A stretch of 12,066 nt of DNA from an archaeon (GTDB lineage Archaea; Thermoproteota; Nitrososphaeria; Nitrososphaerales; CADDZS01), in the NCBI GenBank assembly GCA_021806865.1, contig JAKAPU010000072.1:1-12066 (forward strand), in the 5' to 3' direction. Position 1 is the first letter of the stretch. Each line of letters opens with the position of its first letter. Position numbers and translations under genes: made by a program. The notes beneath the pieces were generated by a model. It made no database searches. It worked only from the letters and a program-made list of their open reading frames with translations, and was not told the origin of the DNA. Below, piece by piece: positions 121 through 12,066 of this stretch.

Positions 121-1056
121 TCAATGCGTCCTCATGAGGACATCAGCCATTATTGCCAAAAATGCAAAGAGCAGATACGGGCTAGAGATCTTGAATACTG
201 TCCATGCCCTCTTGGCTGATGGTTTCAAAAGCAGCCAGATGTTTAGCGCAAGCATCAGAGCGCCCAATACCGACATCGTTCCAATATAAACCTTGTATAG
301 CTGAATCCAAGGAAGGAGCAAAGGAAGCATGCTGTAACCGACCATCATTATCGTTGTGATCGCAATTATCTGCACGGCTCTTTTTTCCGATACTATAACA
401 GGTAGCATCGGAATCTTTGCTTTGGAATAATCATCTCTGAATCTGATTGCAAGCGACCAGATGTGTTCCGGTATCCAGAAGAAAACTAGGAATCCGATGA
501 ATAGAGCTGTCGGGAGTGAAATCAGTGGATGCGGCACCGCAAAATACGCTACTAGTATCGGCATCACGCCAGAAAAGCCGCCGAGAATAATGTTGAGCCA
601 GCTCCTCCTCTTCAAAAGGTAACTGTAGACTATGGCATAGTCCACGAAACCGAAGAGCATCACGAGCGCACTTAGGCGGCCGATAAGAAAGTATGAGATC
701 GCCATGCTTACCGCAAGTAGTGCCAGCCCATATTCCGCGGCGTGGTTCGCCTGTATCTTTCCTGAAGGTATCGGGCGGAGGCATGTCCTTTTCATCAATG
801 CGTCGATGTCACGATCGAAGTAATTCCCCAATGTGTTTGCAGCGGCGGATCCAAGAAATACTGACGCGGAAACAAGCAAAAGCATCGGAACTGAGGAGCC
901 CCACCCAGCTGTCGCAACATAGGAAGCCGCCGCGGTGAACACCAGCAAGTAGACTACGCTAGGCTTGATCTCGCGGTAGTACTCCTGGACTTTGCGCTCG
1001 ATGTTTACGGATGGCAGTTGCAAATCTAATTCACTGAATAGACGTACTTGGTTCAT
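121..1056 (-). CDS. ctaB: Heme o synthase (protoheme IX farnesyltransferase)
   Basis: Integral-membrane UbiA-family prenyltransferase of 311 aa, normal family length. It transfers the farnesyl group of farnesyl diphosphate to heme b, making heme o for heme-copper oxidases. Seen in the sequence: the first Asp-rich motif NTLGNYFDRDIDALMKR followed by LRPIPSG; the second conserved block with YSYLLKRRSWLNIILGG and a G-x-x-P-x-L-x-AYFAVP stretch; and the block EHIWSLAIRFRDDYSKAKIP-MLPV, typical of CtaB rather than of other UbiA enzymes. Several hydrophobic membrane segments are evident. The ATG at 1056 is the natural start. It lies 23 nt after the stop of the Bat-type regulator, so the two probably form an operon; only a weak Shine-Dalgarno is visible. 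Heme o (or heme a made from it) implies an aerobic respiratory chain. No oxidase genes or ctaA are in the window. Confidence 0.95.
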   Translation of the reverse strand: MNQVRLFSELDLQLPSVNIERKVQEYYREIKPSVVYLLVFTAAASYVATAGWGSSVPMLLLVSASVFLGSAAANTLGNYFDRDIDALMKRTCLRPIPSGKIQANHAAEYGLALLAVSMAISYFLIGRLSALVMLFGFVDYAIVYSYLLKRRSWLNIILGGFSGVMPILVAYFAVPHPLISLPTALFIGFLVFFWIPEHIWSLAIRFRDDYSKAKIPMLPVIVSEKRAVQIIAITTIMMVGYSMLPLLLPWIQLYKVYIGTMSVLGALMLALNIWLLLKPSAKRAWTVFKISSPYLLFAFLAIMADVLMRTH

Positions 1057-1079: not shown

Positions 1080-1742
1080 CTACTCCTTCTCAGTGGTTCC
1101 GTTTGGCCCCCCAACGTGAGTTCTCATGATCTTGCCTTCCGCCCTACGAAGCATTTCGTCCAATGTTGATGGGGACGTTCCGAGGATCTCTGAAAGTTTC
1201 TTCAGCCCTATCTTGCGTGGAAACTGAAAGTAGCCTTCCTGGGTCGCTAACTTCACGGCTCTCTCCTGCTTGAAAGTTAGCAAGCCATTTCTTCGCACTT
1301 CTCCTTTATCCACGATGCTAGCTTTGAGACCTTCGGTCTCAAGCTTGGACAAGAGCTCTCCGGGCAACGTCTCTCCTGAGAGTATAACCTTCCATCTCGC
1401 GGTCTTCTTCCTATCGCTAGTCGAGGTCAGAAGGCAGTTTTTGCATATTCCATTCACTGAGGATATCAGCCTGCAAACGGGAGCGCGCTTTGTAATCACT
1501 ATGCCAGAGGCCCGAAACTTGTCGAATACTTGGAACTCGGAATAAAGAACATCTGGTTCAGCAGAAATCATATTGAGAATATCTTTGATAGATTCTCCGC
1601 TCAATATTTCTACAAATTCGAACAAGCCGCGAGAACCGTATGGTTTACAGCTCACAGTTCGTATCAGCACATTTGGTTGGCTAGAAATAGAATTGGCCCA
1701 ACTCTTGATGTTCTGAGTAGTTTCAAGTGTTATCTCGTGCAA
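1080..1742 (-). CDS. Bat-type HTH transcriptional regulator with four conserved cysteines
   Basis: Putative DNA-binding regulator of 220 aa. The C-terminal region (about residues 153-207, starting GLLTFKQERAVKLATQEGYF and continuing through PSTLDEMLRRAEGKI) is the HTH_10 domain of bacterio-opsin-activator-like proteins. The N-terminal part is unassigned and resembles a small ligand-binding or ACT-like fold. It carries Cys32 (TVSCKP) and Cys90, Cys100 and Cys103 (C-x9-C-x2-C). The plus-strand paralog at 2124 shares all four cysteines and about 60% identity over the HTH. The start is TTG at 1742: an in-frame stop lies two codons upstream, and the resulting N-terminus (LHEITLE) aligns with that of the paralog (LREMTVE). 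It is the first gene of a likely operon with ctaB. A 16-bp palindrome lies 57 nt before the start, so autoregulation is plausible. The effector is unknown; metal, heme or redox sensing is inference. Confidence 0.85.
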   Translation of the reverse strand: MHEITLETTQNIKSWANSISSQPNVLIRTVSCKPYGSRGLFEFVEILSGESIKDILNMISAEPDVLYSEFQVFDKFRASGIVITKRAPVCRLISSVNGICKNCLLTSTSDRKKTARWKVILSGETLPGELLSKLETEGLKASIVDKGEVRRNGLLTFKQERAVKLATQEGYFQFPRKIGLKKLSEILGTSPSTLDEMLRRAEGKIMRTHVGGPNGTTEKE

Positions 1743-1799: not shown

Positions 1800-1815
1800 C
1801 CCGAACAGGTTCGGG
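1800..1815 (-). promoter_or_regulatory. Candidate Bat-type operator (site 1, regulator-ctaB promoter)
   Basis: Perfect inverted repeat CCCGAACCTGTTCGGG (minus strand; 7-bp arms, 2-bp spacer), 57 nt upstream of the TTG start at 1742. The same element recurs before hemA (5288-5303) and in the molybdoenzyme promoter region (10650-10665). Immediately downstream is only a weak T-rich TATA-like stretch (about 1795-1785), as expected of an activator-dependent promoter. The repeat is seen directly; its function is inferred. Confidence 0.65.
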
Positions 1816-1846
1816 GTTCATGTGAGATTACTTCACGCATGACATG

Positions 1847-1869
1847 TTTGCAAAGACTTTCTTTGCAAA
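1847..1869. repeat. Double palindrome, candidate operator
   Basis: Perfect inverted repeat TTTGCAAAG-ACTTT-CTTTGCAAA (9-bp arms, 5-bp spacer). Each arm also contains the self-complementary 8-mer TTTGCAAA, giving two palindromes 15 bp apart centre to centre, about one and a half helical turns. It lies 105 bp upstream of the minus-strand regulator and 255 bp upstream of the plus-strand one. The layout suits a pair of dimeric protein sites, but a structured leader cannot be excluded. Confidence 0.5.
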
Positions 1870-2072
1870 AGAACACACACTGAAACTCATACAGAAGCTC
1901 TTTCAATAGACAAGAGCACAATGTGGCATACTGTCGCTCTCCCCCTCCGTACTCAATTTGATCTCACAATGCTAGGGGGCGCGTTGTCCGAGGCTCACAT
2001 TAGCTACTGGTAATTCTGCCTGGACAAAACGACCAATGGAGCTCGTTCCCACCAGTGATAATTGTCAATGGT

Positions 2073-2080
2073 CTTATAAT
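2073..2080 (+). promoter_or_regulatory. Probable TATA box for the plus-strand regulator
   Basis: The sequence CTTATAAT is centred near 2077. At the usual archaeal spacing, transcription would start near 2103 and leave a 20-30 nt leader before the TTG at 2124 or the ATG at 2133. No copy of the 16-bp shared palindrome is present; TTCCCGATAAGAT at 2091-2103 only loosely resembles a half-site. Confidence 0.5.
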
Positions 2081-2123
2081 CAACTTCCGGTTCCCGATAA
2101 GATCAGACCTGAGCTAAGTCAAA

Positions 2124-2789
2124 TTGAGAGAGATGACTGTCGAGATTGAAAAAGAACAGTTCCCACTTATTCTCGACGACCCCGATACCATCTTGAAGGT
2201 TGTCAGCTGTAGACCGCACGGTCCGGAAGGAATGACAATGTTCGTCGAGATAATCAGCAGCTCACCAGTAAGAGATATCTTGGATCGATTAACTGGAAAT
2301 CCGAATATATTTCACTCGAGTTTCAAGATCTTTGATGAATACAGGGCCTCAGGTATGATCACAACCCGTGACTCGCATATTTGCAGACTTCCTTCATTGG
2401 AAGGCGGGTTTTGCAAGGGCTGTCCTCTTGAGCTCAGCTCCACACAGCAAACCAAGGCAAGGTGGCGTGTAGTATTCGCAGATAGCCAATCCTCTAATGA
2501 ATTTCTGAAGAAGCTTGCGGAGAGCGGCATTAGTGCTGAGACCGCGGACGTCGGAGATCTTAGAGAGAATGGGCTACTCACATTGCGTGAAGAGCAGTCG
2601 ATAAGGCTCGCACAAGAACTGGGATATTTTCACTTTCCGAGAAAGACTAGTCTCAGGAAGCTTTCGACCATGATTGGGATATCGCCGTCAACTTTAGATG
2701 AGATACTTCGACGCGCCGAGGGCAAGATAATCAAAGGACACGTAAGAAACCCAAATGGAAACGGCTCTAAGAAATCCTCAAGAATTTGA
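2124..2789 (+). CDS. Bat-type HTH transcriptional regulator, paralog of the ctaB-linked one
   Basis: 221-aa paralog of the regulator at 1080-1742, in inverted orientation. The C-terminal HTH_10 domain (about residues 150-204) contains LLTLREEQSIRLAQELGYFH and ISPSTLDEILRRAEGKI. The N-terminal sensor-like region keeps Cys29 (VVSCRP) and Cys87, Cys97 and Cys100 (CRLPSLEGGFCKGC); in this copy the last Cys is followed by Pro. TTG at 2124 is preferred because its N-terminus aligns with the paralog, and an in-frame TAA lies three codons upstream; ATG at 2133 is the alternative. The basic, Ser/Lys-rich tail (NGNGSKKSSR) differs from the acidic tail of the other copy. It probably arose by duplication and divergence. 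Target genes cannot be read from the sequence. Confidence 0.85.
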   Translation: MREMTVEIEKEQFPLILDDPDTILKVVSCRPHGPEGMTMFVEIISSSPVRDILDRLTGNPNIFHSSFKIFDEYRASGMITTRDSHICRLPSLEGGFCKGCPLELSSTQQTKARWRVVFADSQSSNEFLKKLAESGISAETADVGDLRENGLLTLREEQSIRLAQELGYFHFPRKTSLRKLSTMIGISPSTLDEILRRAEGKIIKGHVRNPNGNGSKKSSRI

Positions 2790-2837
2790 TCTTCTACGAA
2801 AAGCTAATTGTATAGTCACTGAAATCTTGGGTTAACG

Positions 2838-2846
2838 TATTTTTTC
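2838..2846 (+). terminator. Poly-T tract after the regulator gene
   Basis: Run of six T residues (2840-2845) about 50 nt after the stop at 2789, fitting archaeal U-tract termination. No stable stem precedes it. Confidence 0.35.
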
Positions 2847-2875
2847 GTTTGGTTCTCGTAACTGTGAACAAGACC

Positions 2876-2893
2876 ATTATCATCATTGATAAT
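2876..2893. repeat. Inverted repeat before the zinc-ribbon gene
   Basis: Perfect 7-bp inverted repeat ATTATCA-TCAT-TGATAAT, ending 11 bp upstream of the presumed TATA box at 2905. The position suits a regulator site. With its 4-nt loop it could also be a small hairpin in read-through RNA from the upstream gene. Confidence 0.4.
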
Positions 2894-2904
2894 CCTCATC
2901 TGGG

Positions 2905-2912
2905 TTTAAGTT
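2905..2912 (+). promoter_or_regulatory. Probable TATA box for the zinc-ribbon gene
   Basis: TTTAAGTT is centred at about 2908, predicting transcription from about 2934. That gives a nearly leaderless mRNA beginning just before the ATG at 2940, which is one reason for choosing that start over the TTG at 2931. Confidence 0.45.
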
Positions 2913-2939
2913 AGACCATCTCATCTTCGATTGCCAGAA

Positions 2940-3119
2940 ATGAAGCTCATTACAAAAAGCAGAGACGCGGCTTTCACGCGTCAAAATACTCTAAATTATC
3001 ATCCACCAGCTGATTTTGAGTATTTGCCATGCCCACATTGTTTTAGGCATCCTTTCTATCCGAACACACTACCTGTAACACTGCATGAAAATGGCGTTTG
3101 CTTAGTCTGCAGAATCTAG
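2940..3119 (+). CDS. Small CPxC...CxxC zinc-ribbon protein
   Basis: 59-aa protein whose C-terminal half carries two cysteine knuckles, CPHC (residues 31-34) and CLVC (54-57), separated by 19 residues. This is the pattern of a rubredoxin-like or zinc-ribbon fold binding one metal ion. The N-terminal 20 residues are basic and polar. The chain ends two residues after the last Cys, so the protein is essentially one metal site with a tail. ATG at 2940 is chosen from the TATA position; TTG at 2931 would add three residues. Such mini-ribbons in archaea may bind nucleic acid or a protein partner, and the function here is unknown. It stands alone between a Bat-type regulator and a receiver-domain gene, both on the same strand. 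Confidence 0.65.
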   Translation: MKLITKSRDAAFTRQNTLNYHPPADFEYLPCPHCFRHPFYPNTLPVTLHENGVCLVCRI

Positions 3120-3132
3120 GAGAACGAAAATG

Positions 3133-3149
3133 TCGAACTGCGCGTTCGA
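3133..3149. repeat. Inverted repeat TCGAAC-N5-GTTCGA
   Basis: Perfect 6-bp arms (TCGAAC and GTTCGA) separated by TGCGC, 14 nt after the zinc-ribbon stop and 120 nt before the receiver-domain gene. The arms share CGAAC/GTTCG with the 16-bp operator, but the 5-bp rather than 2-bp spacer argues against the same protein. It may be a short hairpin at the end of the zinc-ribbon mRNA; no T-run follows. Confidence 0.3.
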
Positions 3150-3229
3150 ACCAAGGTTAAAGGCAGATATCTCTTTGCGCAACATCATTCGATCTAATTC
3201 AATTATCAACAGTGAAAATTGCCTTACGT

Positions 3230-3237
3230 GTTTTATC
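3230..3237 (+). promoter_or_regulatory. Probable TATA box for the receiver-domain gene
   Basis: GTTTTATC lies about 35 nt before the ATG at 3269, predicting a transcript start near 3260 and a leader of under 10 nt. Confidence 0.4.
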
Positions 3238-3268
3238 GCAATAATGGTACTCACTTCTTGATTAACTG

Positions 3269-3742
3269 ATGTTCCACTTATGGAAGTGGCAGAATGCAAC
3301 TGATCTCTCAGCGCAACAGAAACGTCGATCAGAAAGCGCTGGGTCTAGCAAAACCGATCGAACACTCGCACTAGTCACAACATATGGGATCGATGAGTCA
3401 CTAGCTGCACTACTCAACATTCTAGTTGCGACTGGATTTAGAACAAAGCTAGCTTTTAGTCCAAAAGACGCTCTTTCTATCTTCGTTAAACAGAGACCTA
3501 GTATTGTTCTAGTTGACTATGATCAATCTAGTTGGACTAAGAAATCCATGTGGCAAATACTCACATTCAAACCGCAGGCGAAAGTCATCATGCTGCTTGA
3601 AGGGCTAAGAATTGCTCCTGAAGCAGAGCGTTTAGGTGTTGAACTGGTTCTCAACAAGAGTGAAGATGCTGCAAAACTTGCGAAGATAATCAAAGCAATA
3701 TCGGAGCTTACAAGGGATAGTTGCTCTCTTGTTGAGCGGTAG
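3269..3742 (+). CDS. Stand-alone degenerate receiver-domain (CheY-like) protein
   Basis: 157 aa. Residues about 32-145 follow the alternating strand/helix pattern of a response-regulator receiver. PSIVLVDYD places the phospho-acceptor-type Asp at residue 83, and LVLNKSED gives the conserved Lys at 130. Two hallmarks are missing: the acidic pair after strand 1 (here LVTTYGID) and the Thr/Ser after strand 4 (here VIMLLEG). The usual Lys-Pro is Lys-Ser. There is no output domain, only a Ser/Arg/Lys-rich N-terminal tail of about 30 residues. It may act by protein contact, either with atypical phosphorylation or as a phosphorylation-independent pseudo-receiver. No histidine kinase is adjacent. ATG at 3269 fits the TATA spacing. 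It is convergent with hemA. Confidence 0.6.
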   Translation: MFHLWKWQNATDLSAQQKRRSESAGSSKTDRTLALVTTYGIDESLAALLNILVATGFRTKLAFSPKDALSIFVKQRPSIVLVDYDQSSWTKKSMWQILTFKPQAKVIMLLEGLRIAPEAERLGVELVLNKSEDAAKLAKIIKAISELTRDSCSLVER

Positions 3743-3803
3743 CTATGGTTAGAAATCGATCAACAGTTTAGTCTTAATACAAACAAGAAGTAAACTTGCA
3801 GAC

Positions 3804-3809
3804 CTTTTT
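3804..3809 (+). terminator. Possible T-tract terminator after the receiver-domain gene
   Basis: The tract CTTTTT lies about 65 nt after the stop, inside the 82-bp gap between convergent genes. It is short and has no preceding stem. Confidence 0.2.
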
Positions 3810-3824
3810 CTGCCTTAACCGGCA

Positions 3825-5231
3825 TCAATCTTTTAGAGAAAACAATTCTTGAATGGTCTCAAGATATACGCTACTGACTTCGTTGGACTCATTTCGTGCA
3901 ATTATCCGAAGTCTTTCAGTTGGAAGGCGCAGGATACGCCGCACCATTCTTTGCGACATTACTTCGAGGATCTTCTGGTCACTAGCAGAAAGGTCGGGCA
4001 TTCTTTCTAGTGCTGCATTAACTTCATCGCTTCGAATATCTTCGGCCGCATTGTAGAGCCTGGACAAGATATCATTCACACCTGAATCCTCTTCCTTTAT
4101 TGCTTGCAAACACTCGTAAGATCTGCGTCTAACCAGTTCTTCAGCGTGGGAAAGATAGGAAGATTGATTCGGTGATTCGATTGCTTCTCTTAAAACGTCC
4201 TTTCTTGCAAGATCGTCCAGATCGTACAGAGTCACATTTCGCATGTCTCTCACGGCTGGATCGACACTCCTGGGAAAAGACATGTCGACAATCAGGAGTG
4301 GCTTGCGACGATTACTAGCACTTTCTTTTTCGGTCTCATGAAAGCTCAGATGCTCAGGGTGAAGCACGTATCCATCAGATGAAATCGCGGAGATGATGAC
4401 GGCGACAGTATTCTTTCTGAGCTCTGGCGCTACTTCTTCCAAGCTAATGTTTGCATCTGCCCCAATGTCATTTGTTGGCAGTCTACGAGAGGCCAAAAGG
4501 ATCTTGCCAACTTTTTGACGATCGAGAGATTTAACAGCAAGCTTGGCCATCTTGCCCGAGCCGAGTACAAGAATATTGGGCTTGAAAGGTCCACCTATTT
4601 GTGACAGATCGTCATCCTTGCTGGACAATCCTCTTTCCAAGAATTTCGCTATCGAAAAACTCATAGAATTACGAGCTTCGTTAGCATAAGACGGATTTGC
4701 AATTCTTACTTCCCTTCCGGCTGCAACAGCTCTCTGAAAAACTAATGATAGTACAGGGCCGGCAAGAGAATACTGTTTTGCCTGCGCGAGAGCATCGTGA
4801 ACCTGGGAGACTATTTGTGCCTCTCCTTTTACTAGAGAATCCAGTCCCGCGGAGACAGAGAAGAGATGTTCTACTGCATCTCTTTCCCGAAAACTGAACA
4901 TCTCAAATTCTCTCGACTGCCCAGTCTCTTTTAGCAGTGAGAGTAGTGAAGCAGAAACTCGCTCTATCGCTTTGCACGCAAAGTAAATTTCCATACGATT
5001 ACACGTAGATAGGATGGCAAACTCGCAATCTCGCAGATTTTCATCTTTCTTCAACTTTTCCAGTTTTTCAAGTGTGATCTTTCTTGTCAGGTTCTCCCTC
5101 GTTGCTATGGGCGCGGTCTTGAAGGTCGCACCTATTACAGCCACGGTAATGGCCGAATGTTCACTAGAATCATTGGTGCTATCCAAAGTCAATCTCGACT
5201 CTAGGTCTTGCTCGGCCAGGGATGAGATCAA
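3825..5231 (-). CDS. hemA: Glutamyl-tRNA reductase
   Basis: NADPH-dependent reduction of glutamyl-tRNA(Glu) to glutamate-1-semialdehyde, the committed step of C5-pathway tetrapyrrole synthesis. 468 aa. Seen: catalytic Cys77 in ILSTCNRMEIY; the signature SAGLDSLVKGEAQIVSQV (about 127-144); NADPH-site LVLGSGKMA (221-229); VDMSFPRSVDP and LYDLDDL; and a C-terminal helical dimerisation domain. No in-frame ATG exists before the catalytic core, so the start is non-ATG. TTG at 5231, directly after an in-frame TAA, is chosen because it places the start 56 nt from the upstream palindrome, matching the regulator-ctaB gene. GTG at 5144 would remove about 29 Ser/acid-rich residues and give the usual family N-terminus. 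It is transcribed from its own promoter downstream of the molybdoenzyme operon. No other hem genes are in the window. Confidence 0.95.
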   Translation of the reverse strand: MISSLAEQDLESRLTLDSTNDSSEHSAITVAVIGATFKTAPIATRENLTRKITLEKLEKLKKDENLRDCEFAILSTCNRMEIYFACKAIERVSASLLSLLKETGQSREFEMFSFRERDAVEHLFSVSAGLDSLVKGEAQIVSQVHDALAQAKQYSLAGPVLSLVFQRAVAAGREVRIANPSYANEARNSMSFSIAKFLERGLSSKDDDLSQIGGPFKPNILVLGSGKMAKLAVKSLDRQKVGKILLASRRLPTNDIGADANISLEEVAPELRKNTVAVIISAISSDGYVLHPEHLSFHETEKESASNRRKPLLIVDMSFPRSVDPAVRDMRNVTLYDLDDLARKDVLREAIESPNQSSYLSHAEELVRRRSYECLQAIKEEDSGVNDILSRLYNAAEDIRSDEVNAALERMPDLSASDQKILEVMSQRMVRRILRLPTERLRIIARNESNEVSSVYLETIQELFSLKD

Positions 5232-5272
5232 TTATCGGCCACGATCGCTAGAAAATAGAGAAAGAATATCTG

Positions 5273-5280
5273 ATGCATAA
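5273..5280 (-). promoter_or_regulatory. Candidate TATA element for hemA
   Basis: Minus-strand TTATGCAT is a weak TATA match 7 bp downstream of the shared palindrome. It predicts transcription from about 5250 and a leader of about 20 nt to the TTG at 5231. Confidence 0.4.
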
Positions 5281-5287
5281 GAGAATT

Positions 5288-5303
5288 CCCGAATAGGTTG
5301 GGG
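5288..5303 (-). promoter_or_regulatory. Candidate Bat-type operator (site 2, hemA promoter)
   Basis: CCCCAACCTATTCGGG on the minus strand differs at two of 16 positions from site 1 (1800-1815). On the plus strand the identity extends on both sides, with a preceding T and a following GT. It lies 56 nt before the hemA TTG start and abuts the presumed TATA element. Confidence 0.6.
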
Positions 5304-5392
5304 GTCTTGTTACTCCCCTACGGCGCTACTTACTTTTTGAGTTGCACTGCTCTCTCAGATAGGTGGAAGTCTAATATCTACAGGTTCCGTAC

Positions 5393-5815
5393 TCATCGCG
5401 ACAAAGAGAGAGAACTCTTCTTCATATCGATTGTCATCTTGAAGTTTTTCAAGAATGAGCGCCCTATTATCATGTCGAATGGAACCAGACGAGGAATACC
5501 GAGCTCAATCAACACGGTGTCGACGTTCTCAGCAGCCATTCTACCGACTGAAACCTCCTTCAGTGTGAAGAGGATGCTACGCTCTATGCCTCGGAAATCA
5601 AGTATAAACGGGGCTTTGTCTGGATGAGTCTTCTGCCAATGTGAAGGTCGAAAGGAAGCTTCGGTATAGCCTAGAGCCAGAGCATCATTTGAAAACATAG
5701 CGCAATACTCTGAGTTGAAGTCGAGTATCGAAGTGAGTTCTCTGACCATACCATTGGTTCCCTTCACTCTACATATAGTCAGCATAGGATCTCGCAGTGC
5801 AACTCTCAAGATCAA
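5393..5815 (-). CDS. Retropepsin-like aspartic protease-fold protein, degenerate (copy 2)
   Basis: 140 aa, last gene of the molybdoenzyme operon. It has the single-lobe clan AA layout: an active-site loop at ILDFNSEYC (residues 30-38, Asp32 kept but DTG/DSG changed to DFN), then ALALGY, and a C-terminal FDMIIGRSFLKNFKMTID that matches the family's d-x-x-hG-x-x-x-L-x-x-f-x-hxhD block. TTG at 5815 overlaps the stop of the previous gene (TTGA) and is supported because the region from residue 7 aligns without gaps over 32 residues with the tandem copy upstream (both share RD, VR/MVRE and SEYC). An ATG at 5785 would cut into this alignment. Whether it has protease activity is doubtful. It may bind peptides, act in maturation of the exported enzyme, or pair with the upstream copy; these roles are inference. 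Confidence 0.65.
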   Translation of the reverse strand: MILRVALRDPMLTICRVKGTNGMVRELTSILDFNSEYCAMFSNDALALGYTEASFRPSHWQKTHPDKAPFILDFRGIERSILFTLKEVSVGRMAAENVDTVLIELGIPRLVPFDMIIGRSFLKNFKMTIDMKKSSLSLSR

Positions 5816-6228
5816 GCAGTCACCGCTTTTTCCAAAGTCATTTGATGCGACCCGTAATCTAGTTGAAGCTTGGTGTTTTGGAGCAGACTCTTTCCTATTA
5901 CTACGTCGAAACCTGCTGCCTGTAAGATGTCGACGGCGACAAACTCAACATCCTTGAACGTCGTACCAGCTATATCCACCTCGAGCATCTTAAGAGAGAC
6001 ACCTCTGGCGTACCCGCTGTAGCTTGCAAAGTGTAGCTGGTTTGGACTGAACGATCGCACGTCGCTGCCGCCAGCGACAGGATAACCTAGGGCGAAGGCA
6101 TCAACGGGCGGGATGATGCAGTATTCGCTTGTGGGAACGACCAACGCTTGATATTCTCTCACGACGCCGCTCAGTCCCTTTAGCCTCACGAATATAGTGG
6201 GAAAGTCCCGAAAGTTCTGCTGGATCAC
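5812..6228 (-). CDS. Retropepsin-like aspartic protease-fold protein, catalytic Asp absent (copy 1)
   Basis: 138 aa, tandem paralog of the following gene. The aligned active-site loop reads ALVVPTSEYC (28-37): Val31 sits where the other copy has Asp32, so the canonical D-T/S-G is gone. The rest of the fold is kept, including VDAFALGY and the C-terminal FDVVIGKSLLQNTKLQLDY. The start is GTG at 6228, overlapping the stop of the DUF5678-like gene (GTGA), so translation is probably coupled. No signal peptide or membrane segment is visible, so it should stay in the cytoplasm. Placement behind three molybdo-hydroxylase subunits suggests a link to that enzyme, but no direct function can be read. Confidence 0.65.
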   Translation of the reverse strand: MIQQNFRDFPTIFVRLKGLSGVVREYQALVVPTSEYCIIPPVDAFALGYPVAGGSDVRSFSPNQLHFASYSGYARGVSLKMLEVDIAGTTFKDVEFVAVDILQAAGFDVVIGKSLLQNTKLQLDYGSHQMTLEKAVTA

Positions 6229-6473
6229 AACATTAGATGATATGGCGAACCACCTGCGAATATTATGCAGATGTCTTGATAATTCGTGATGTGACTCCTT
6301 AGCCGGTAGCGGTCGACTTCGTCAGCCACCACTATTCCTCTGATCGGTTGCAGATTCTTATCCCTTGCAGTTACAGTTAACGCGACCCATCTGCCCGCGT
6401 ACTTTGTAGAAATCTCTTCGAGAGAGAGGTCTTCTGTTTTTTCGGGTTGCTGCGCTACTTCAGGCGGACTCAT
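6225..6473 (-). CDS. DUF5678-like small protein
   Basis: 82 aa from the ATG at 6473. The core STKYAGRWVAL (residues 22-32) followed by a short strand-rich stretch to IIFAGGSP resembles DUF5678, a small archaeal domain with the y-x-GkWVAl signature that I recall occurring near retropepsin-like genes. The N-terminal 20 residues are Pro/Glu-rich and probably disordered. ATG at 6473 is 23 nt after the FAD-subunit stop and has GAAGGG upstream. An earlier in-frame start at 6545 would overlap the FAD gene by 49 nt and add a basic, less family-like extension. The stop overlaps the GTG of the next gene. The DUF5678 assignment is from memory of the family pattern. Biochemical function is unknown. Confidence 0.6.
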   Translation of the reverse strand: MSPPEVAQQPEKTEDLSLEEISTKYAGRWVALTVTARDKNLQPIRGIVVADEVDRYRLRSHITNYQDICIIFAGGSPYHLML

Positions 6474-6496
6474 AGCATAGTATGCCCTTCTTTTTG

Positions 6497-7513
6497 CTAG
6501 GAGATGGCTCGAAGCGCGTTCTTGACGGCTCCCTTTGCCAGCCATACTCTAAATGAGTTCCCTGTTCCCTCTGTGAGAGGTGTGGCCCCGGAGAGAGCTG
6601 TATCCGCAGCTGACGAGATAACGGTATCGGAGAGAGTCTTCCCGTTCAGGTACTGTTCTGCTGAAGTAGCGCGTAGTGGTTTGTTTGCGACTGCACCTAG
6701 GACGAGGCTAATTGATGAAATTGTGCTTCCGCTGAACGTCGCGCGTACGGCAGCACTCGCAAGTGCGAAATCGAAAGTCCCACGATCTGTCACCTTGTAG
6801 AAAGCACTTTTTGTTCCTGAGGTAGGCACAGGAATGTGAAACTCTGTCAGCAACTCGTTGTAAGATAGGATGTTCTCCTTTACGCGACCGTCGACCACGC
6901 TTACGCCAGGAATCAATTGATCCATTGTCACCGTTCGTTGTCCTGAGGGTCCCGCGATAGTTGCTTCGGCGCTTAATGCGAAGAGAGCTGGAGCAATGTC
7001 TCCGGCATGAACGCCGTAGCAAAGATTGCCCCCGAAAATGCTGTGGTAGTATCGGTTGTCTCCTCCCTCGGCGGCGTAACACAAGTTCCCACCGTTACGC
7101 CAGCACGAAGGATATGCATTGCGCAAATACCAGCACCAGACTTCCTGAAGAACGTCTCCCGCAATTGTGGCTTGATTTCTGATATGAGGGGAAGCGACGG
7201 AGCCTGCGGCCTGTGAAAGAGCGGCGTAGTTCGAAATCACGTCCGAATTCTGTGCCACTGTATTGACTGCGGTGGTTGCGCCTATCCTCAACCCGTCACT
7301 CTGGCTGAAGTTAACGTAGTCCAGATTCAATGCAGAGATGTCTATCAAGTATTGCGGCGTAAGTGTTGAAACACCATTTTTCATCAAAGTCAGTACGTCC
7401 GTGGCTCCCCCGATTATCCTCGCCTGGTCTCCATATTTATTCAGCAGCGAGATCGCGTTGTTAACCGATGTTGCTTGCAGGTATCCGAATTTTGGAACTT
7501 CTGAAGTGCTCAT
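6497..7513 (-). CDS. Molybdenum hydroxylase FAD subunit with four-cysteine (probable 4Fe-4S) insert
   Basis: 338 aa, medium subunit of a xanthine-dehydrogenase-family enzyme; FAD carries electrons from the iron-sulfur clusters to the acceptor. Seen: FAD-binding ARIIGGATDVL (31-41), PHIRNQATIAGD (109-120), AGDIAPALFAL (170-180), and a CO-dehydrogenase flavoprotein-type C-terminal domain. Between the FAD motifs lies an insert with Cys127, Cys137, Cys145 and Cys165, starting CWYLRNAYPSC and ending GGNLCYGVHAGD. It closely matches the insert of E. coli PaoB (YagS), which holds an extra 4Fe-4S cluster; 4-hydroxybenzoyl-CoA reductase beta subunits have a related one. The start ATG at 7513 is preceded by a strong AAGGAG overlapping the stop of the large-subunit gene. 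No signal peptide, so export would be by hitch-hiking with the TAT subunit. Confidence 0.88.
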   Translation of the reverse strand: MSTSEVPKFGYLQATSVNNAISLLNKYGDQARIIGGATDVLTLMKNGVSTLTPQYLIDISALNLDYVNFSQSDGLRIGATTAVNTVAQNSDVISNYAALSQAAGSVASPHIRNQATIAGDVLQEVWCWYLRNAYPSCWRNGGNLCYAAEGGDNRYYHSIFGGNLCYGVHAGDIAPALFALSAEATIAGPSGQRTVTMDQLIPGVSVVDGRVKENILSYNELLTEFHIPVPTSGTKSAFYKVTDRGTFDFALASAAVRATFSGSTISSISLVLGAVANKPLRATSAEQYLNGKTLSDTVISSAADTALSGATPLTEGTGNSFRVWLAKGAVKNALRAIS

Positions 7514-7524
7514 ATTCTTTCACT

Positions 7525-7530
7525 CTCCTT
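7525..7530 (-). promoter_or_regulatory. Shine-Dalgarno for the FAD subunit
   Basis: AAGGAG on the minus strand overlaps the TAA stop of the large-subunit gene and lies 11 nt before the ATG at 7513. It supports that start and coupled translation. Confidence 0.7.
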
Positions 7531-9847
7531 ATAGCTTACCATTCTGCTGCATCCACTCAAGGGCCGCGACAATATCCTCACGTCTGATCGGAGTCTTAGA
7601 GAATCTGTATCCTCCAAGGGCATTGCTTAGGGCATTTGCGATTGCAGCACTTGTTGCGCAAAGGGAGGGTTCGCCCATTCCTTTTGCGCCAAATGGACCT
7701 GTAGGGTCTGGGACGGACTCATTTACAATCGGGGTGTGGTTGTCAGGAGTTTCCATGATTGTGGGAACCTTGTTATCATTGAAATTCGGATTGAGGTAGC
7801 CTCCAGACCATGGCAAGCCGGTTGTCGTATCATGGATAGTCTCCTCATACAGACCTGAACCGATACCAAGTCCGATGAAGCCGCCCTCGTTCTGTGCGTA
7901 CGCACCCTTGTACCATAGGATTCGCCCAACATCGATGGAGCTAACCGAATTCACAATATGCACATCGGCGGTTTCGGTGTCAACCTGTATCTCGACGAGT
8001 TTGGCGCCAGTAACGCGATGGGTATAGGCGAAACCGGCCAGCACCTCAGGAGTAGCGTTCGCAGACACCTTCAAAGGCTGAGTGAGTAATGCCGCCGCAT
8101 CTTTGAACGACATCGAATTGCTAGGGTTAGTCGTATCGTAGATGGTGTTATTGCCGAACGCCAGATTGCTCGCTTGCGTACCTGTTGCAAGTTTCGCGGC
8201 GACGATTGGAAACCATTGCTTGCCCAGTTCCTTGGCTGCTGCGATCATTGCCGTACCACCATTCCTGCTTCCCTGGCTACCTGCTGTAACGGAGGAATCG
8301 GTGTTGATCGATGTGTCACCGCAGTAGTACGTCATGTTGTCGAACGACGTAAGGCCCAGTGCTGAAACTCCTTCGATTGGAATGGTAGTAGTAGTGCCAG
8401 CTCCTTGGTCAACGTGACCACTGTATAGTATCACCGACCCATCAGGGTTAACCTGTATTTGCGCACTAGAGGGAGGAAACGCCGAGCCTTTGTTGCTGTT
8501 CAAGTAAGCTACTCCCACGCCGGTCAGCTTTGTGCCTTGCAGATTCACTTGTCCCCAACCTTTCCACTTGGCGCTCCAGTTGAAGGCGTCAACGGCCTGC
8601 TGGAAGGTCTGTGGCTCATTAATTTGAGCGTATGGCGTTCCAGCGACGGGATCCTTTGCACCTGGATTTGTTCGGATATTGTTCAACCTGAAAGTAACGG
8701 GGTCAATTCCTAGCTGTTGTGCAAGCTGATCGATGGCCGATTCCAAGATGAAATGAGCCTGACTCTCGCCGACATCCCTCATGTACATGCCGGCGCCATA
8801 AGAATTGGTGTTGGCTCCGTACACGTCCATCTGAAAGTTGGGAACTGCGTATCCAGTATAAAGGTCGTCGTCGCCATCGATTACACCTCCACGAGCGCCG
8901 CCATCGTAATACATTGTTGCCTGAATTGCCAAGAGTTTACCTGCCTTCGTGCCGCCCACCTTGATGTTTGCTTTTTCCGGGAAACGGGCGGTCGAGTTTA
9001 GGGCGTTGTCCAGCCGCCTGGCTACATACTTTACTGGAGCCCCTACCTTCTTTGCCATAGCAGCAGCAAGTATGTGATAATCCGCTCCAGTGGCGTTTCC
9101 GAACATGCCACCAGCCGCGGCGTTCGTGGTTCCTCCCATCGCCTCTCTCACAACCACATCAGAAACAGGTATTCCGAAGTACTGGGCTAAAGTAGACTGA
9201 TCTCCGAACACGTAGTTAGTTTTCTCCCAGATATACAACACGCCATTGTTCCAGTAAGCGGTGGTATTGACTGGCTCGAGCTCGAAGTGTTGGTGATAAC
9301 CTGCATATAGGTTGTCGATTTCGACTACTTGGTCAGATTGCGAAAAGCCTGTGCTGACATTTCCGAAGGAAATATTTATCGGAGGGGTAAACGAATTTCC
9401 ACCCGGGTAAAGCTGAGGAGCAGTGGACTTTAACGCGTCTTCTGGGTCAAAAACATATGGCAGAGCCTCGTACTCAACGTCTATAAGGTTTAGAGCATCA
9501 ACAACGCCATTTGGAGTTGGTGCGCCAACTACAGCTATTGGTTGACCCGCATAGATGACAGTGTCGCTAGTCACCGGAAGATACGAACGCGTGTACGAAA
9601 AGTAATCGTATGCTGGAAGGTCACTACCGACTAAAGTGACAAATCCAGCGGCCTGTGCCTTGCTAACGTCAAGTTTCGTGACCTTGGCTCGCGGATACGG
9701 CGCAGTAACCAAGCCCATGTAGATCATGCTACTGGCACCTATATCCTTAGCATAGATATCAGAAGCGTACAACCGCTGGCCCGTAATTCTAGCGTATATG
9801 TCCCTGTTCACAACGTTCGGGTTGTCTATCAGACCTGATTGTGACAT
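7529..9847 (-). CDS. Molybdenum hydroxylase molybdopterin-binding catalytic subunit
   Basis: 772 aa, large subunit of a xanthine-dehydrogenase/aldehyde-oxidoreductase-family enzyme carrying the molybdopterin cofactor. Seen: N-terminal domain with DIYARITGQRLYASDI and the substrate-channel region SDTVIYAGQPIAVV; H-x-x-LEP (187-192); the cofactor loop GGMFGN (246-251); MRDVGESQAHFILESAIDQL (356-375); SGHVDQGAG (476-484); TAGSQGSRNGGTA (521-533); and the C-terminal KGMGEPS with the catalytic-base Glu726. It lacks the AYxCSFR loop of form I CO dehydrogenase (here GAGMYMRDVGE), so CO oxidation is unlikely. An aldehyde or N-heterocycle substrate is more plausible but undetermined. The usual GGGFGGK loop is altered (GGTTNAAAGGMFGN). 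No signal peptide. ATG at 9847 is 6 nt after the small-subunit stop, with GGAGGTG upstream. Confidence 0.93.
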   Translation of the reverse strand: MSQSGLIDNPNVVNRDIYARITGQRLYASDIYAKDIGASSMIYMGLVTAPYPRAKVTKLDVSKAQAAGFVTLVGSDLPAYDYFSYTRSYLPVTSDTVIYAGQPIAVVGAPTPNGVVDALNLIDVEYEALPYVFDPEDALKSTAPQLYPGGNSFTPPINISFGNVSTGFSQSDQVVEIDNLYAGYHQHFELEPVNTTAYWNNGVLYIWEKTNYVFGDQSTLAQYFGIPVSDVVVREAMGGTTNAAAGGMFGNATGADYHILAAAMAKKVGAPVKYVARRLDNALNSTARFPEKANIKVGGTKAGKLLAIQATMYYDGGARGGVIDGDDDLYTGYAVPNFQMDVYGANTNSYGAGMYMRDVGESQAHFILESAIDQLAQQLGIDPVTFRLNNIRTNPGAKDPVAGTPYAQINEPQTFQQAVDAFNWSAKWKGWGQVNLQGTKLTGVGVAYLNSNKGSAFPPSSAQIQVNPDGSVILYSGHVDQGAGTTTTIPIEGVSALGLTSFDNMTYYCGDTSINTDSSVTAGSQGSRNGGTAMIAAAKELGKQWFPIVAAKLATGTQASNLAFGNNTIYDTTNPSNSMSFKDAAALLTQPLKVSANATPEVLAGFAYTHRVTGAKLVEIQVDTETADVHIVNSVSSIDVGRILWYKGAYAQNEGGFIGLGIGSGLYEETIHDTTTGLPWSGGYLNPNFNDNKVPTIMETPDNHTPIVNESVPDPTGPFGAKGMGEPSLCATSAAIANALSNALGGYRFSKTPIRREDIVAALEWMQQNGKL

Positions 9848-9853
9848 ACTTCA

Positions 9854-10600
9854 TCACGCACCTCCAAGGTTCTTTGCTGCAAGTTGTACTGACGCGATTA
9901 TGTTCGGATAGTCGCCGCACCTGCACAGATTGCCGGCCAGTGCCGCCTTAATTTCGTCCACGGTCGGATTCGGGTTCTGTTTCAGCAAAGCGGTGGCAGT
10001 CATTATCTCACCAGGAGAACAAAATCCGCACTGGCCACCATCGTCTTCTACGAATGCACTCTGTAGAGCTGCTACTATTGGATCTGGAGCTGGTGCTCCA
10101 GCGGCTGTACTGGCCACACCTGCTTCGGTTGTCAAGATCTTCTTTCCGATAGCCCTAAGTGCAATGTACTGGCATGAATTGTAAGGAACGCCGTCGATCA
10201 AAATCGAACAGCCTCCGCACTCCATTCTGTTGCAGGGGCGTTTGGTTCCGATTAATCCGATCTGTTCTCTGATTACGTTGACCAACATGTCACGAGGCTC
10301 GACTGTAACTGGATAGTCTACGCCATTTACGTTGAGAGTAATGTTCTGAGAAGCGAAAGGATCTGTTTGCTGGGTAGCTACTACCGTGCTCTGCGACGAA
10401 GCTAGTCGACTTTTTCCAATTACAGCACCAGAAACTCCCACGACAGCAGCCGCGGCCACGGTTCCTTTAAGGAACGTTCTTCTGCTGACCTTCTCCTTTC
10501 GTATGCCGTCGAAAACGCCGCTCGACACGCTCCCAGATTCTTTCGAATCGGTTGCCGCCACCATCTTTTCAGATTTTGCGGACTTTTTCTTCGAACTCAT
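9854..10600 (-). CDS. Molybdenum hydroxylase 2Fe-2S subunit with TAT signal
   Basis: 248 aa. A twin-arginine signal, VSRRTFLKG (RR at 40-41), is followed by an Ala/Val-rich hydrophobic stretch. Then comes a plant-type ferredoxin domain, Cys123-x4-Cys128-x2-Cys131-x11-Cys143 (RPCNRMECGGCSILIDG), and a helical domain with CGFC (191-194) and CRC (226-228), giving the two 2Fe-2S clusters of the family. The TAT signal predicts export of the folded three-subunit enzyme, as for E. coli PaoA. The n-region of about 39 Lys/Ser-rich residues is unusually long. ATG at 10600 is chosen because a BRE/TATA at 10643-10634 predicts a transcript start near 10610; an upstream in-frame start at 10672 would lie within the promoter. 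First gene of a six-gene operon (small, large, medium, DUF5678-like, two retropepsin-like). Confidence 0.92.
   Translation of the reverse strand: MSSKKKSAKSEKMVAATDSKESGSVSSGVFDGIRKEKVSRRTFLKGTVAAAAVVGVSGAVIGKSRLASSQSTVVATQQTDPFASQNITLNVNGVDYPVTVEPRDMLVNVIREQIGLIGTKRPCNRMECGGCSILIDGVPYNSCQYIALRAIGKKILTTEAGVASTAAGAPAPDPIVAALQSAFVEDDGGQCGFCSPGEIMTATALLKQNPNPTVDEIKAALAGNLCRCGDYPNIIASVQLAAKNLGGA
9859..9865 (-). promoter_or_regulatory. Shine-Dalgarno for the molybdopterin subunit
   Basis: GGAGGTG on the minus strand lies inside the last codons of the 2Fe-2S gene, 11 nt before the ATG at 9847. It supports coupled expression of the two subunits. Confidence 0.65.
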
Positions 10601-10633
10601 TTGAATAGCAACCTTACGATGTTGCGTTTCGCA

Positions 10634-10643
10634 ATTATATTTC
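10634..10643 (-). promoter_or_regulatory. BRE/TATA promoter of the molybdoenzyme operon
   Basis: GAAATATAAT on the minus strand is a good BRE plus TATA match. It predicts transcription from about 10610, a leader of about 10 nt to the ATG at 10600, and lies 6 bp from the shared palindrome at 10650-10665. Confidence 0.6.
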
Positions 10644-10649
10644 GAGTTA

Positions 10650-10665
10650 CCCGAACCTGTTTGGG
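10650..10665 (+). promoter_or_regulatory. Candidate Bat-type operator (site 3, divergent molybdoenzyme promoter)
   Basis: CCCGAACCTGTTTGGG on the plus strand differs at one of 16 positions from site 1. It sits between two divergent TATA boxes (minus 10634-10643, plus 10671-10679), 5-6 bp from each, and could therefore act on both the operon and the plus-strand gene. Confidence 0.6.
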
Positions 10666-10670
10666 TAGCC

Positions 10671-10679
10671 ACATATATC
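10671..10679 (+). promoter_or_regulatory. Probable TATA box of the plus-strand unknown gene
   Basis: ACATATATC, centred near 10675, predicts a transcript start near 10701. This supports a translation start at or after 10715 rather than the ATG at 10619. Confidence 0.45.
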
Positions 10680-10714: not shown

Positions 10715-11383
10715 TTGTCAATAGAACGGGAAGATAGGCGAAAGATTCTCATCGGATTTCTTCCCTATGTTGTGGACAAGTATCTTGAAGCGCGAAGAAT
10801 GATCGATCCGACATCAATAGCTCTTGGAATGGTTGACAAATACAATCAAAGAATAGAATATGAGCAGCAAGAATTGCAGACTGCATTCAGATATGTCGAA
10901 AATCTCAAACCTGAGTTTGAGAATGGGAAGCTATCATTGCGCATCGATAAGAGAACCACTTTAGTTACCATGGAAAATTATCTAAGGAAGAGATTTGCTG
11001 CAAAAGAGGCGGGAAGCACAGTTTCGCTTCGGTATCCCGAAGATACAGGCGGAAGCATGGAATACGACGCGGTCTTCCAGCTTCCAGAACGGAGCATATT
11101 TCTTAAGATTCTTCCGGATGGGTTGAAAGCTCTTGACTACGCAAACTCGCAAATGGAAAATGCCCGCCTTGTAAATCCCTCGGAGTTATGGCTGCTAACT
11201 GTTGCGCAAGAAGCATTGAATATCGATTTTGATCCCATCTTTATGGAAAACAAGATACTTCGAGGTGGCATAAGAACGCTAGAACTTACAGATGTGTTCA
11301 GAGAAGTAGTGGGAAAAGACTTTGACATATCCTTGTTGCGAGATGGAAGCGACGACTTCAAACTAATCGCAAGCAAGAAGTGA
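10715..11383 (+). CDS. Conserved-looking protein of unknown function, divergent to the molybdoenzyme operon
   Basis: I do not recognise this 222-aa protein. The first 50 residues after the proposed TTG start are helical and charged, with REDRRKILIGFLPYVVDKYL; the middle is a Glu/Lys-rich alpha/beta stretch. The C-terminal half has ILPDGLKALDYAN and LVNPSELWLLTVAQEALNIDF, ending LIASKK. No signal peptide, membrane helix, cysteine motif or known catalytic motif is visible, so it is probably a soluble cytoplasmic protein. The start is uncertain. TTG at 10715 fits the TATA box at 10675; ATG at 10799 would shorten it by 28 residues; the frame is open upstream to 10601, but that part overlaps the promoter. 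The shared divergent promoter with a common palindrome suggests co-regulation with the exported molybdoenzyme. Confidence 0.6.
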   Translation: MSIEREDRRKILIGFLPYVVDKYLEARRMIDPTSIALGMVDKYNQRIEYEQQELQTAFRYVENLKPEFENGKLSLRIDKRTTLVTMENYLRKRFAAKEAGSTVSLRYPEDTGGSMEYDAVFQLPERSIFLKILPDGLKALDYANSQMENARLVNPSELWLLTVAQEALNIDFDPIFMENKILRGGIRTLELTDVFREVVGKDFDISLLRDGSDDFKLIASKK

Positions 11384-11753: not shown

Positions 11754-12066
11754 CTAGCCAGCAACGGCCTTTTTCAGGTCACTCGCTGCCGTTGCCATCG
11801 CGTGCAGTTTTGCGTATGCAGACTTTGCTGAGTTTAGCGGGGTCTCGGCAAAGGTGGCGAAGCCGCAATCGGGGTTGAGGTAAATACGAGACGGATCGAA
11901 ATACTTTGTCGCTGTTCTGACTCTAGTTGCGATCTGTTCCGGCGTCTCAACTACATCCGTACGGGGATTGACCACTCCGAGTCCCAGTTCCTTTTCACCA
12001 GACAGACCTTCCAAAACGGAGAGATTTCCAGCTCTTTCGGTAGCAAACTCCAACACTAACTGGTCA
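11754..12066 (-). CDS. metE: Cobalamin-independent methionine synthase, C-terminal part (gene runs off the window)
   Basis: The last 103 complete codons of a gene that begins beyond the right edge. It matches the C-terminal catalytic barrel of MetE-type enzymes, which transfer a methyl group to homocysteine. Seen: LEFATERAGNLSVL, GLGVVNPRTDVVETPEQIATRV, and YLNPDCGFATF with the zinc-ligand Cys; then the typical A-x-x-KLHAMATAA end. Archaea usually have a core-only MetE of about 340 aa whose methyl donor is often not a methyltetrahydrofolate, but the size cannot be judged here. The frame stays open to the window edge (DQLVLEF precedes the visible part), so no start is in the window. Stop TAG at 11754-11756. 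Confidence 0.88.
   Translation of the reverse strand, partial: DQLVLEFATERAGNLSVLEGLSGEKELGLGVVNPRTDVVETPEQIATRVRTATKYFDPSRIYLNPDCGFATFAETPLNSAKSAYAKLHAMATAASDLKKAVAG

Follow-up and report, generated by a model that had tools for sequence, protein, structure and literature searches.

We analysed a 12,066-nt stretch of DNA from an archaeon of the Nitrososphaerota (contig JAKAPU010000072.1 of assembly GCA_021806865.1), referred to below as the window. It carries three copies of a 16-nt palindrome, located upstream of reg1, of hemA and of an operon for a molybdoenzyme of the xanthine oxidase family (Table 1). We propose that the palindrome serves, with good probability, as operator for a short regulator of the Bat type (HTH_10) working like the haloarchaeal NarO and DmsR, and that its most likely reader is Reg1, the product of reg1. 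The evidence supported a NarO/DmsR-like regulon in the Nitrososphaerota and not a heme regulon.

All three palindromes were found intergenic and placed as in an earlier sequence-only reading of this DNA, which had linked them to heme synthesis, heme o synthesis and a molybdoenzyme, and the distances to the proposed starts were reproduced. The palindromes share the symmetry CCnAA-N4-TTnGG with CCC/GGG ends; the core CGAAY-N2-RTTYG is present at operators 1 and 3, and operator 2 has CCAAC in one arm. As that reading had noted, there is no further copy in the window. Its consensus with up to 3 mismatches matched only these three places (5 strand matches), while the mean in 200 shuffles was 0.27 and none reached 5. 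A looser pattern, CCCNAAYNNRTTNGGG, gave 3 exact matches where 2000 first-order Markov sequences averaged 0.003, an enrichment which is partly circular because both patterns were made with the window sites in view. The statement that the sites abut TATA-like elements held in full for operator 3 alone, with clear boxes on both sides; at operators 1 and 2 the TATA-like elements are weak. Operator 3 is common to the molybdoenzyme operon on the minus strand and a divergent, uncharacterised gene on the plus strand.

The exact pattern CCCNAAYNNRTTNGGG was scanned in 46 genomes of the family of Candidatus Gagatemarchaeum, with the reversed pattern as control. There were 41 sites in 21 genomes and 7 control matches; the looser pattern had also been fitted to two Gagatemarchaeum sites, both of which are counted among the 41. 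The genome of Gagatemarchaeum stordalenia (G001) alone held 7 sites and no match to the reversed pattern. Where a genome had a regulator match at E ≤ 1e-20, sites were present in 18 of 28 cases (38 sites in all), whereas of the 18 genomes lacking such a match 3 carried a site (3 sites; Fisher p 0.0023, where p values are optimistic because genomes and loci are related). A pooled set of 43 sites was formed from 40 non-duplicate family sites and the 3 from the window. Only 15 of them lay wholly within mechanically called open reading frames (ORFs), which cover 90.7% of these loci, and 8 had a TATA-like hexamer 3-16 nt from the site edge, compared with 3.3% of random intergenic places. The sequence-only reading had named occurrence at chance frequency, coding DNA included, as grounds to drop the motif; the excess of 41 over 7 and the location mostly outside ORFs spoke for keeping it. 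Chance palindromes would be in line with just three window sites and a consensus built from them. They are hard to reconcile with the family scan, the bias away from ORFs, the window null models and the CoxS promoters described below (9 of 10 with a site), and chance origin, made very unlikely by the family scan and the upstream conservation, was rejected. Across 151 genomes of the order, a strict palindrome, CCCGAAYNNRTTCGGG, occurred in 8 genomes and its control in 1; G069, G099, G124 and G139, among these 8, lay outside the family scan. Since few genomes carry the strict site, no order-wide regulon is claimed. An identical palindrome, CCCGAACGTGTTCGGG, followed by the box GATATATC, was seen 5' of a class III aminotransferase gene in G069 (L202:1158-1173) and G099 (L203:3824-3839).

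Two HTH_10 proteins of 220-221 amino acids, Reg1 and Reg2, are encoded in the window. They scored 60.7 and 58.8 bits, respectively, with PF04967 (cut-off 23.1), which places both in the HTH_10 family, and HTH_10 was their sole significant Pfam domain. No PAS or GAF domain was detected with Pfam at E ≤ 10, where Reg1 gave HTH-type matches only and Reg2 gave HTH-type matches and one spurious 16-residue peptide model. In length and in lacking PAS and GAF domains, both resemble the short Bat proteins, and they did not agree with Bat proper, since these domains were undetected. In an alignment of 18 sequences from the Nitrososphaerota side, C90, C100 and C103 were present in all 18 and C32 in at least 90%, and the pattern C-x(7-11)-C-x2-C was found in 25 of 30 regulator homologues. 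A first protein search returned 7 matches, and the two that bore an organism name were both from a Nitrososphaerota archaeon. The predicted structure of Reg1 had a mean predicted local distance difference test (pLDDT) score of 72 (8 sequences), with values below 50 at residues 104-112, adjoining the CxxC. Because of this and of the low template modelling score (TM 0.24 on the query) of the five matches by fold in the Protein Data Bank (PDB) that reached E ≤ 0.001, we do not propose a metal site. A PDB sequence search with Reg1 gave nothing at E ≤ 0.1.

Within 250 nt upstream of the regulator homologues, a site was found in 20 of 30 with up to 2 mismatches and in 13 of 30 with up to 1, and the controls gave none in either case. 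These upstream sites, the HTH_10 domain and the match of arm base and clade described below supported the earlier proposal of a Bat-family reader, with Reg1 as the best candidate in the window. Judging from its promoter site, reg1 is probably autoregulated. The reg2 promoter region (1816-2123) had no good site, the best match showing 4 mismatches. Several regulator homologues have two sites at a spacing of 79-84 nt. In L053, L054, L055, L057, L059, L066 and L069, two palindromes stand 82-84 nt apart, one or both mismatched; such pairs upstream of regulators, the second near the start, may possibly reflect looping or dual control.

To find which targets are conserved, 350 nt upstream of the CoxS, HemA and CtaB homologues were searched. 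Nine of the 10 close CoxS homologues had a site (3 exact, 6 with 2 mismatches; control 0/10). The 2-mismatch test covered these 10; with up to 1 mismatch, no site occurred anywhere in the loci of the more distant CoxS homologues (L117-L136, 20 of 30 loci). HemA homologues had a site in 4 of 24, all with 2 mismatches and at scattered positions (control 0/24), so far leaving the hemA link confined to the window, and the best CtaB homologue had none in 30 (control 2/30). A second ctaB paralogue carried an exact site in G023 and G024 only, where the other copies were checked by the exact-pattern scan alone. For cytochrome oxidase subunit II, a site at the start or close to it was found in G012 and G044, and in G045 by eye, in another frame. 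The other genes adjoining sites encode the regulator itself, the molybdoenzyme, cytochrome b561 (G001, G029), a zinc-uptake binding protein and SRPBCC-fold proteins; further ones were without a Pfam match. As judged from these promoters, the stable core is the regulator and the molybdoenzyme, to which cytochrome b561 or oxidase subunit II is added in some genomes. Hence, of the promoters for which the sequence-only reading had sought conservation, those of the molybdoenzyme bore it out, those of oxidase subunit II did so in some genomes, and those of hemA and ctaB did not, so that its heme theme was not conserved. A true heme-supply regulon, conserved as such, is accordingly improbable. It would account for the sites at hemA and reg1-ctaB in the window, the ctaB sites of G023 and G024 and the oxidase subunit II sites, yet the conserved target is the molybdoenzyme, and hemA and ctaB as the conserved core were rejected on their upstream counts.

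A counterpart of the window, L001 of G. stordalenia, was found when genome contigs were scanned with an alignment of the regulators; a search for genomes with hemA as bait gave none. The molybdoenzyme operon is shared, with S, L and M subunits 42-54% identical to those of the window and followed by three small genes, and the site at L001:3980, CCCTAATACGTTCGGG, lies between divergent genes in the layout of operator 3. Another site, CCCGAACAGATTGGGG, is located 5' of the L001 regulator gene. The contig holds two more, one 5' of a cytochrome b561 gene and one 5' of a second molybdoenzyme operon; a MobA-like gene is found two genes past the cytochrome b561 gene. A further G001 site stands 5' of a 2-hydroxyglutaryl-CoA dehydratase/BcrAD-type pair, and one of the 7 G001 sites (L034) is inside an ORF. 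About 300 nt (L001:9693-10000) separate site and TATA box from the regulator start, with no Rfam or tRNA match, and this stretch may be a long leader or an undescribed RNA. At L036:4008 and G001:C29:19564, two sites are separated by 57 nt, 5' of an operon for an HgdB/BcrC-type enzyme; the second of them bears one mismatch.

The arm sequence was compared with the type of regulator. In the first group (window, G001, G028 and G029) the best regulator match has an STLDE-type recognition helix, and the second group comprises the remaining site-bearing genomes, most of which have KPSTLSE-type regulators. Arm position 4 was T in 3 of 26 half-sites of the first group and in 33 of 48 of the second (p 2e-6, optimistic given kinship). 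The exceptions are G023 and G024, which carry G arms with a KPSTLSE-type best match, and G029 holds more regulator matches beyond its STLDE-type one. By these counts, arm base 4 differs between regulator clades.

The operator also resembles a motif of haloarchaea. The nor/nos motif of haloarchaea, CGAACATGTTCG, and the core of operator 1, CGAACCTGTTCG, are a single base apart, and in a Natrononativus locus the core CGAACCTGTTCG stands 1 nt before the annotated regulator start. According to the account in PMC10062603, the nar, nir, nor and nos promoters of Haloferax mediterranei share CGAAYATDKTYG, mutation of which significantly decreased nos and nor promoter activity without a significant effect on nir and nar, and 83 promoter regions carry the motif. 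Passages of PMC11218638 propose two short bacterioopsin activators without PAS or GAF as regulators, the gene of one carrying the motif, and term NarO an oxygen sensor. A tblastn search with Reg1 matched 254 haloarchaeal plasmid records, with E down to 6e-8 among the 40 matches listed, and these relatives align over most of the length of Reg1. Relatives beside denitrification-type genes had E values of 1e-7 (H3), 1e-4 (H2) and 2e-2 (H14), and the best E values included proteins adjoining P-type ATPases. A second search with one haloarchaeal relative led to loci beside genes for DUF2249 proteins, halocyanin and multicopper oxidase, and beside cbb3-type oxidase subunit I, NosL/NosD or NrfD genes. 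In 11 haloarchaeal loci, CGAAYNNRTTCG with up to 1 mismatch had 68 sites, 35 of them intergenic where intergenic DNA makes up 22%, and 18 of these 35 were 37-43 nt 5' of an annotated start. In our genomes, no nar, nir, nor or nos gene, and no other gene of denitrification or DMSO respiration, was seen among the site neighbours that were scanned; these were part of all neighbours, and many lack a Pfam match.

Several observations weigh against a NarO/DmsR-like operator read by Reg1. Sites occur in three genomes that lack a regulator match at E ≤ 1e-20. Within 250 nt, no site was found for 10 of the 30 regulator homologues, including the closest, L003, L051 and L052 (in L003 a site lies 308 nt upstream). 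Allowing 1 mismatch in three genomes gave 46 sites and 28 controls, so that most of the excess was lost, and L053/L055, L070/L071, L107/L108 and L114-L116 are near-duplicate loci. Identity of Reg1 to the haloarchaeal proteins is just 23-28% among the matches listed, and the C-x9-C-x2-C set was absent from the 11 haloarchaeal proteins compared. Four of the 11 haloarchaeal loci (L183, L185, L190, L191) had no intergenic site, and the reversed-pattern control there (2 sites, one of them intergenic) is a weak one, given the high CG content of this DNA. The reader of the haloarchaeal motif is itself unproven, since PMC10062603 states, in the passages concerned, that no homologue of H. volcanii NarO was found in H. 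mediterranei, and two other candidates have been proposed. The first two of these points would also suit another reader, such as an HTH_3-CBS protein, with the HTH_10 genes merely being targets, and one G001 site does adjoin an HTH_3-CBS gene (L035). We regard such a reader as quite improbable, because arm base 4 varies with the HTH_10 clade, sites recur 5' of HTH_10 genes and the haloarchaeal motif is likewise found beside HTH_10 genes.

The position of the site relative to the TATA box was not uniform. The AT fraction at 10-12 nt past the site was 0.87 in 23 hand-picked promoter rows and 0.61 for the 43 sites with both sides pooled, compared with about 0.47 further out. This peak suggests that the operator often lies just upstream of the TFB recognition element (BRE) and TATA box, the expected place for an archaeal activator. 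A single palindrome can then act on two divergent promoters, for which 10650 and L001:3980 are examples. Molybdoenzyme operons with the site upstream of TATA, here called type A, were those of the window (operator 3), L001 (3980) and G029 contig 20. Type B operons, with the site between TATA and start, were those of G029 contig 13 and its homologues in G042, G021, G023, G030, G039 and G040, and less clearly G001 L033, where a TATA-like box precedes the site and the start is 25 nt beyond. Regulator genes (e.g., G012, G035) and ctaB of G023 and G024 likewise had their site past the TATA box, either ahead of the start or on the start codon. In a midpoint-rooted CoxS tree of 12 rows, 10 of them distinct, the type A genes split from the rest with support 96/94; two branches of this tree, each from G001, were flagged as long.

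Comparative sequence evidence, as given above, shows the sites, how far they are conserved, how they go together with the regulator and where they stand relative to TATA; from it, binding, direction of control and signal can be predicted. A dimer of Reg1, and perhaps of Reg2 too, would bind CCnAAn4TTnGG and, bound upstream of the TATA region, would help TBP and TFB and so activate transcription. In the window this would apply to reg1 with ctaB (autoregulation), to hemA, and in both directions to the exported molybdoenzyme and its divergent gene. In relatives, a site between TATA and start would lead to repression. Redox state or oxygen is the probable signal, and the conserved cysteines would be its sensor. 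Tentatively, one cysteine-bearing HTH_10 redox regulator could thus act as an isoenzyme switch that turns the type A exported molybdoenzyme on and type B off. Both isoforms occur together in G029 and probably in G001, and activation of one with repression of the other would be the simplest reading of site position. That the window regulator is a repressor and not an activator, for example by oxygen-dependent autorepression, seems unlikely to us. A repressor would agree with the many relatives in which the site stands ahead of the start but past TATA, or on the start codon itself (at several regulator genes, at one coxS isoform and at ctaB of G023 and G024), and with the unclear TATA boxes at operators 1 and 2, whereas the site upstream of TATA in the three type A operons and the decreased nos and nor activity reported upon motif mutation (PMC10062603) argue for activation.

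Features of the window are listed in Table 1. The CoxS-like ORF is open up to 10672, and the ATG at 10600 is the preferred start. Aerobic carbon monoxide dehydrogenase was not supported as the identity of the molybdoenzyme by the large-subunit scores, which were below cut-off (TIGR02416, 114 vs 991 bits; NF040766, 142 vs 950 bits). The three small proteins encoded at 5393-6545 gave no Pfam match. Located downstream of reg1, ctaB is probably co-transcribed with it. A small ORF between the regulators and hemA (3269-3742) had a weak match to a response-regulator receiver domain (E 0.04), and a MetE (methionine synthase) homologue is found near the cluster both in the window (11754-12056) and in Gagatemarchaeum (L001:10779-11945). 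No match was obtained in an Rfam scan of the window and L001 or in a tRNA scan of L001.

Table 1. Features of the window, with predicted operators and promoter elements.
Feature	Coordinates	Strand	Remarks
CtaB, heme o synthase	121..1056	-	TIGR01473 above cut-off; 23 nt after reg1
Reg1	1080..1742	-	220 aa (amino acids); C-terminal HTH_10 (PF04967); C32, C90, C100 and C103 conserved
Putative operator 1, CCCGAACCTGTTCGGG	1800..1815	-	57 nt 5' of reg1 start; pattern match, sequence
Reg2	2124..2789	+	Reg1 paralogue (44% identical), divergent; HTH_10; same cysteines
HemA, glutamyl-tRNA reductase	3825..5231	-	TIGR01035 above cut-off, and Pfam
Putative operator 2, CCCCAACCTATTCGGG	5288..5303	-	56 nt 5' of hemA start; pattern match, sequence
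Three small genes (6225-6545, 5812-6228, 5393-5815)	5393..6545	-	After molybdoenzyme; same order in L001, 48-54% identity
FAD subunit of the molybdoenzyme	6497..7513	-	NCBIfam matches below cut-off
Molybdopterin (large) subunit	7529..9847	-	All NCBIfam matches far below cut-off; substrate not assignable
CoxS-like [2Fe-2S] subunit of xanthine-oxidase-family molybdoenzyme	9854..10600	-	Twin-arginine translocation (Tat) signal
TATA-like box, AAATATAA	10635..10642	-	7 nt past operator 3; would serve molybdoenzyme operon; sequence
Putative operator 3, CCCGAACCTGTTTGGG	10650..10665		49 nt from each of two divergent starts
TATA-like box, ATATAT	10673..10678	+	7 nt past operator 3; would serve divergent gene; sequence
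Uncharacterised gene, divergent from molybdoenzyme	10715..11383	+	Homologue at same place in L001 (34.5%)

Three known systems can be compared with the proposed regulon. FNR-type regulators of bacteria offer an analogy, in which one anaerobic redox regulator controls alternative respiratory enzymes and site position sets activation or repression, although their protein family and promoter machinery are unrelated to the HTH_10 system. The bop upstream activator sequence (UAS) of Halobacterium, to which the sequence-only reading had likened the palindrome, presumably has arms CC-N7-TTnGG near its TATA box, in which case it agrees with the window sites in spacing. The Bat system shares an HTH_10 reader with the window and differs in its target genes and in the PAS, GAF and associated domains which Bat carries (PMC11218638) and which were undetected in Reg1 and Reg2.

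The N terminus of NarO is cysteine-rich. The NarO/DmsR-type short Bat proteins and CGAAYATDKTYG share most with the window: a regulator of about 220 amino acids with C-terminal HTH_10 and no PAS/GAF, an operator core CGAAC-N2-GTTCG, a regulator gene among the site-bearing genes, respiratory and molybdenum enzymes nearby, and sites clustered in islands. The regulon, which the earlier reading had called new, is therefore not quite so, since its operator core is nearly that of the known haloarchaeal motif; no report of motif or regulator in Nitrososphaerota was found in titles, abstracts and term counts of one open library. Unlike the haloarchaeal systems, the one proposed here belongs to another archaeal phylum and has an operator extended by CCC/GGG, four conserved cysteines of which the C-x9-C-x2-C part is missing in the 11 haloarchaeal proteins compared, opposite site placement in isoenzymes, and as targets an exported xanthine-oxidase-family enzyme, cytochrome b561, oxidase and heme genes. 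A regulatory code of salt-loving archaea would thereby extend to uncultured Nitrososphaerota that inhabit peat and acidic soils, with regulator and operator named and the controlled enzymes predicted. Whether this group lives with or without oxygen is disputed, as described in part of PMC10640624, and a redox regulon would therefore give a direct handle. If CCnAAn4TTnGG indeed spans Bat, NarO and the proteins described here, operators could be matched to their regulators from one archaeal phylum to another, and specificity could be tested through the arm base in which the clades differ.

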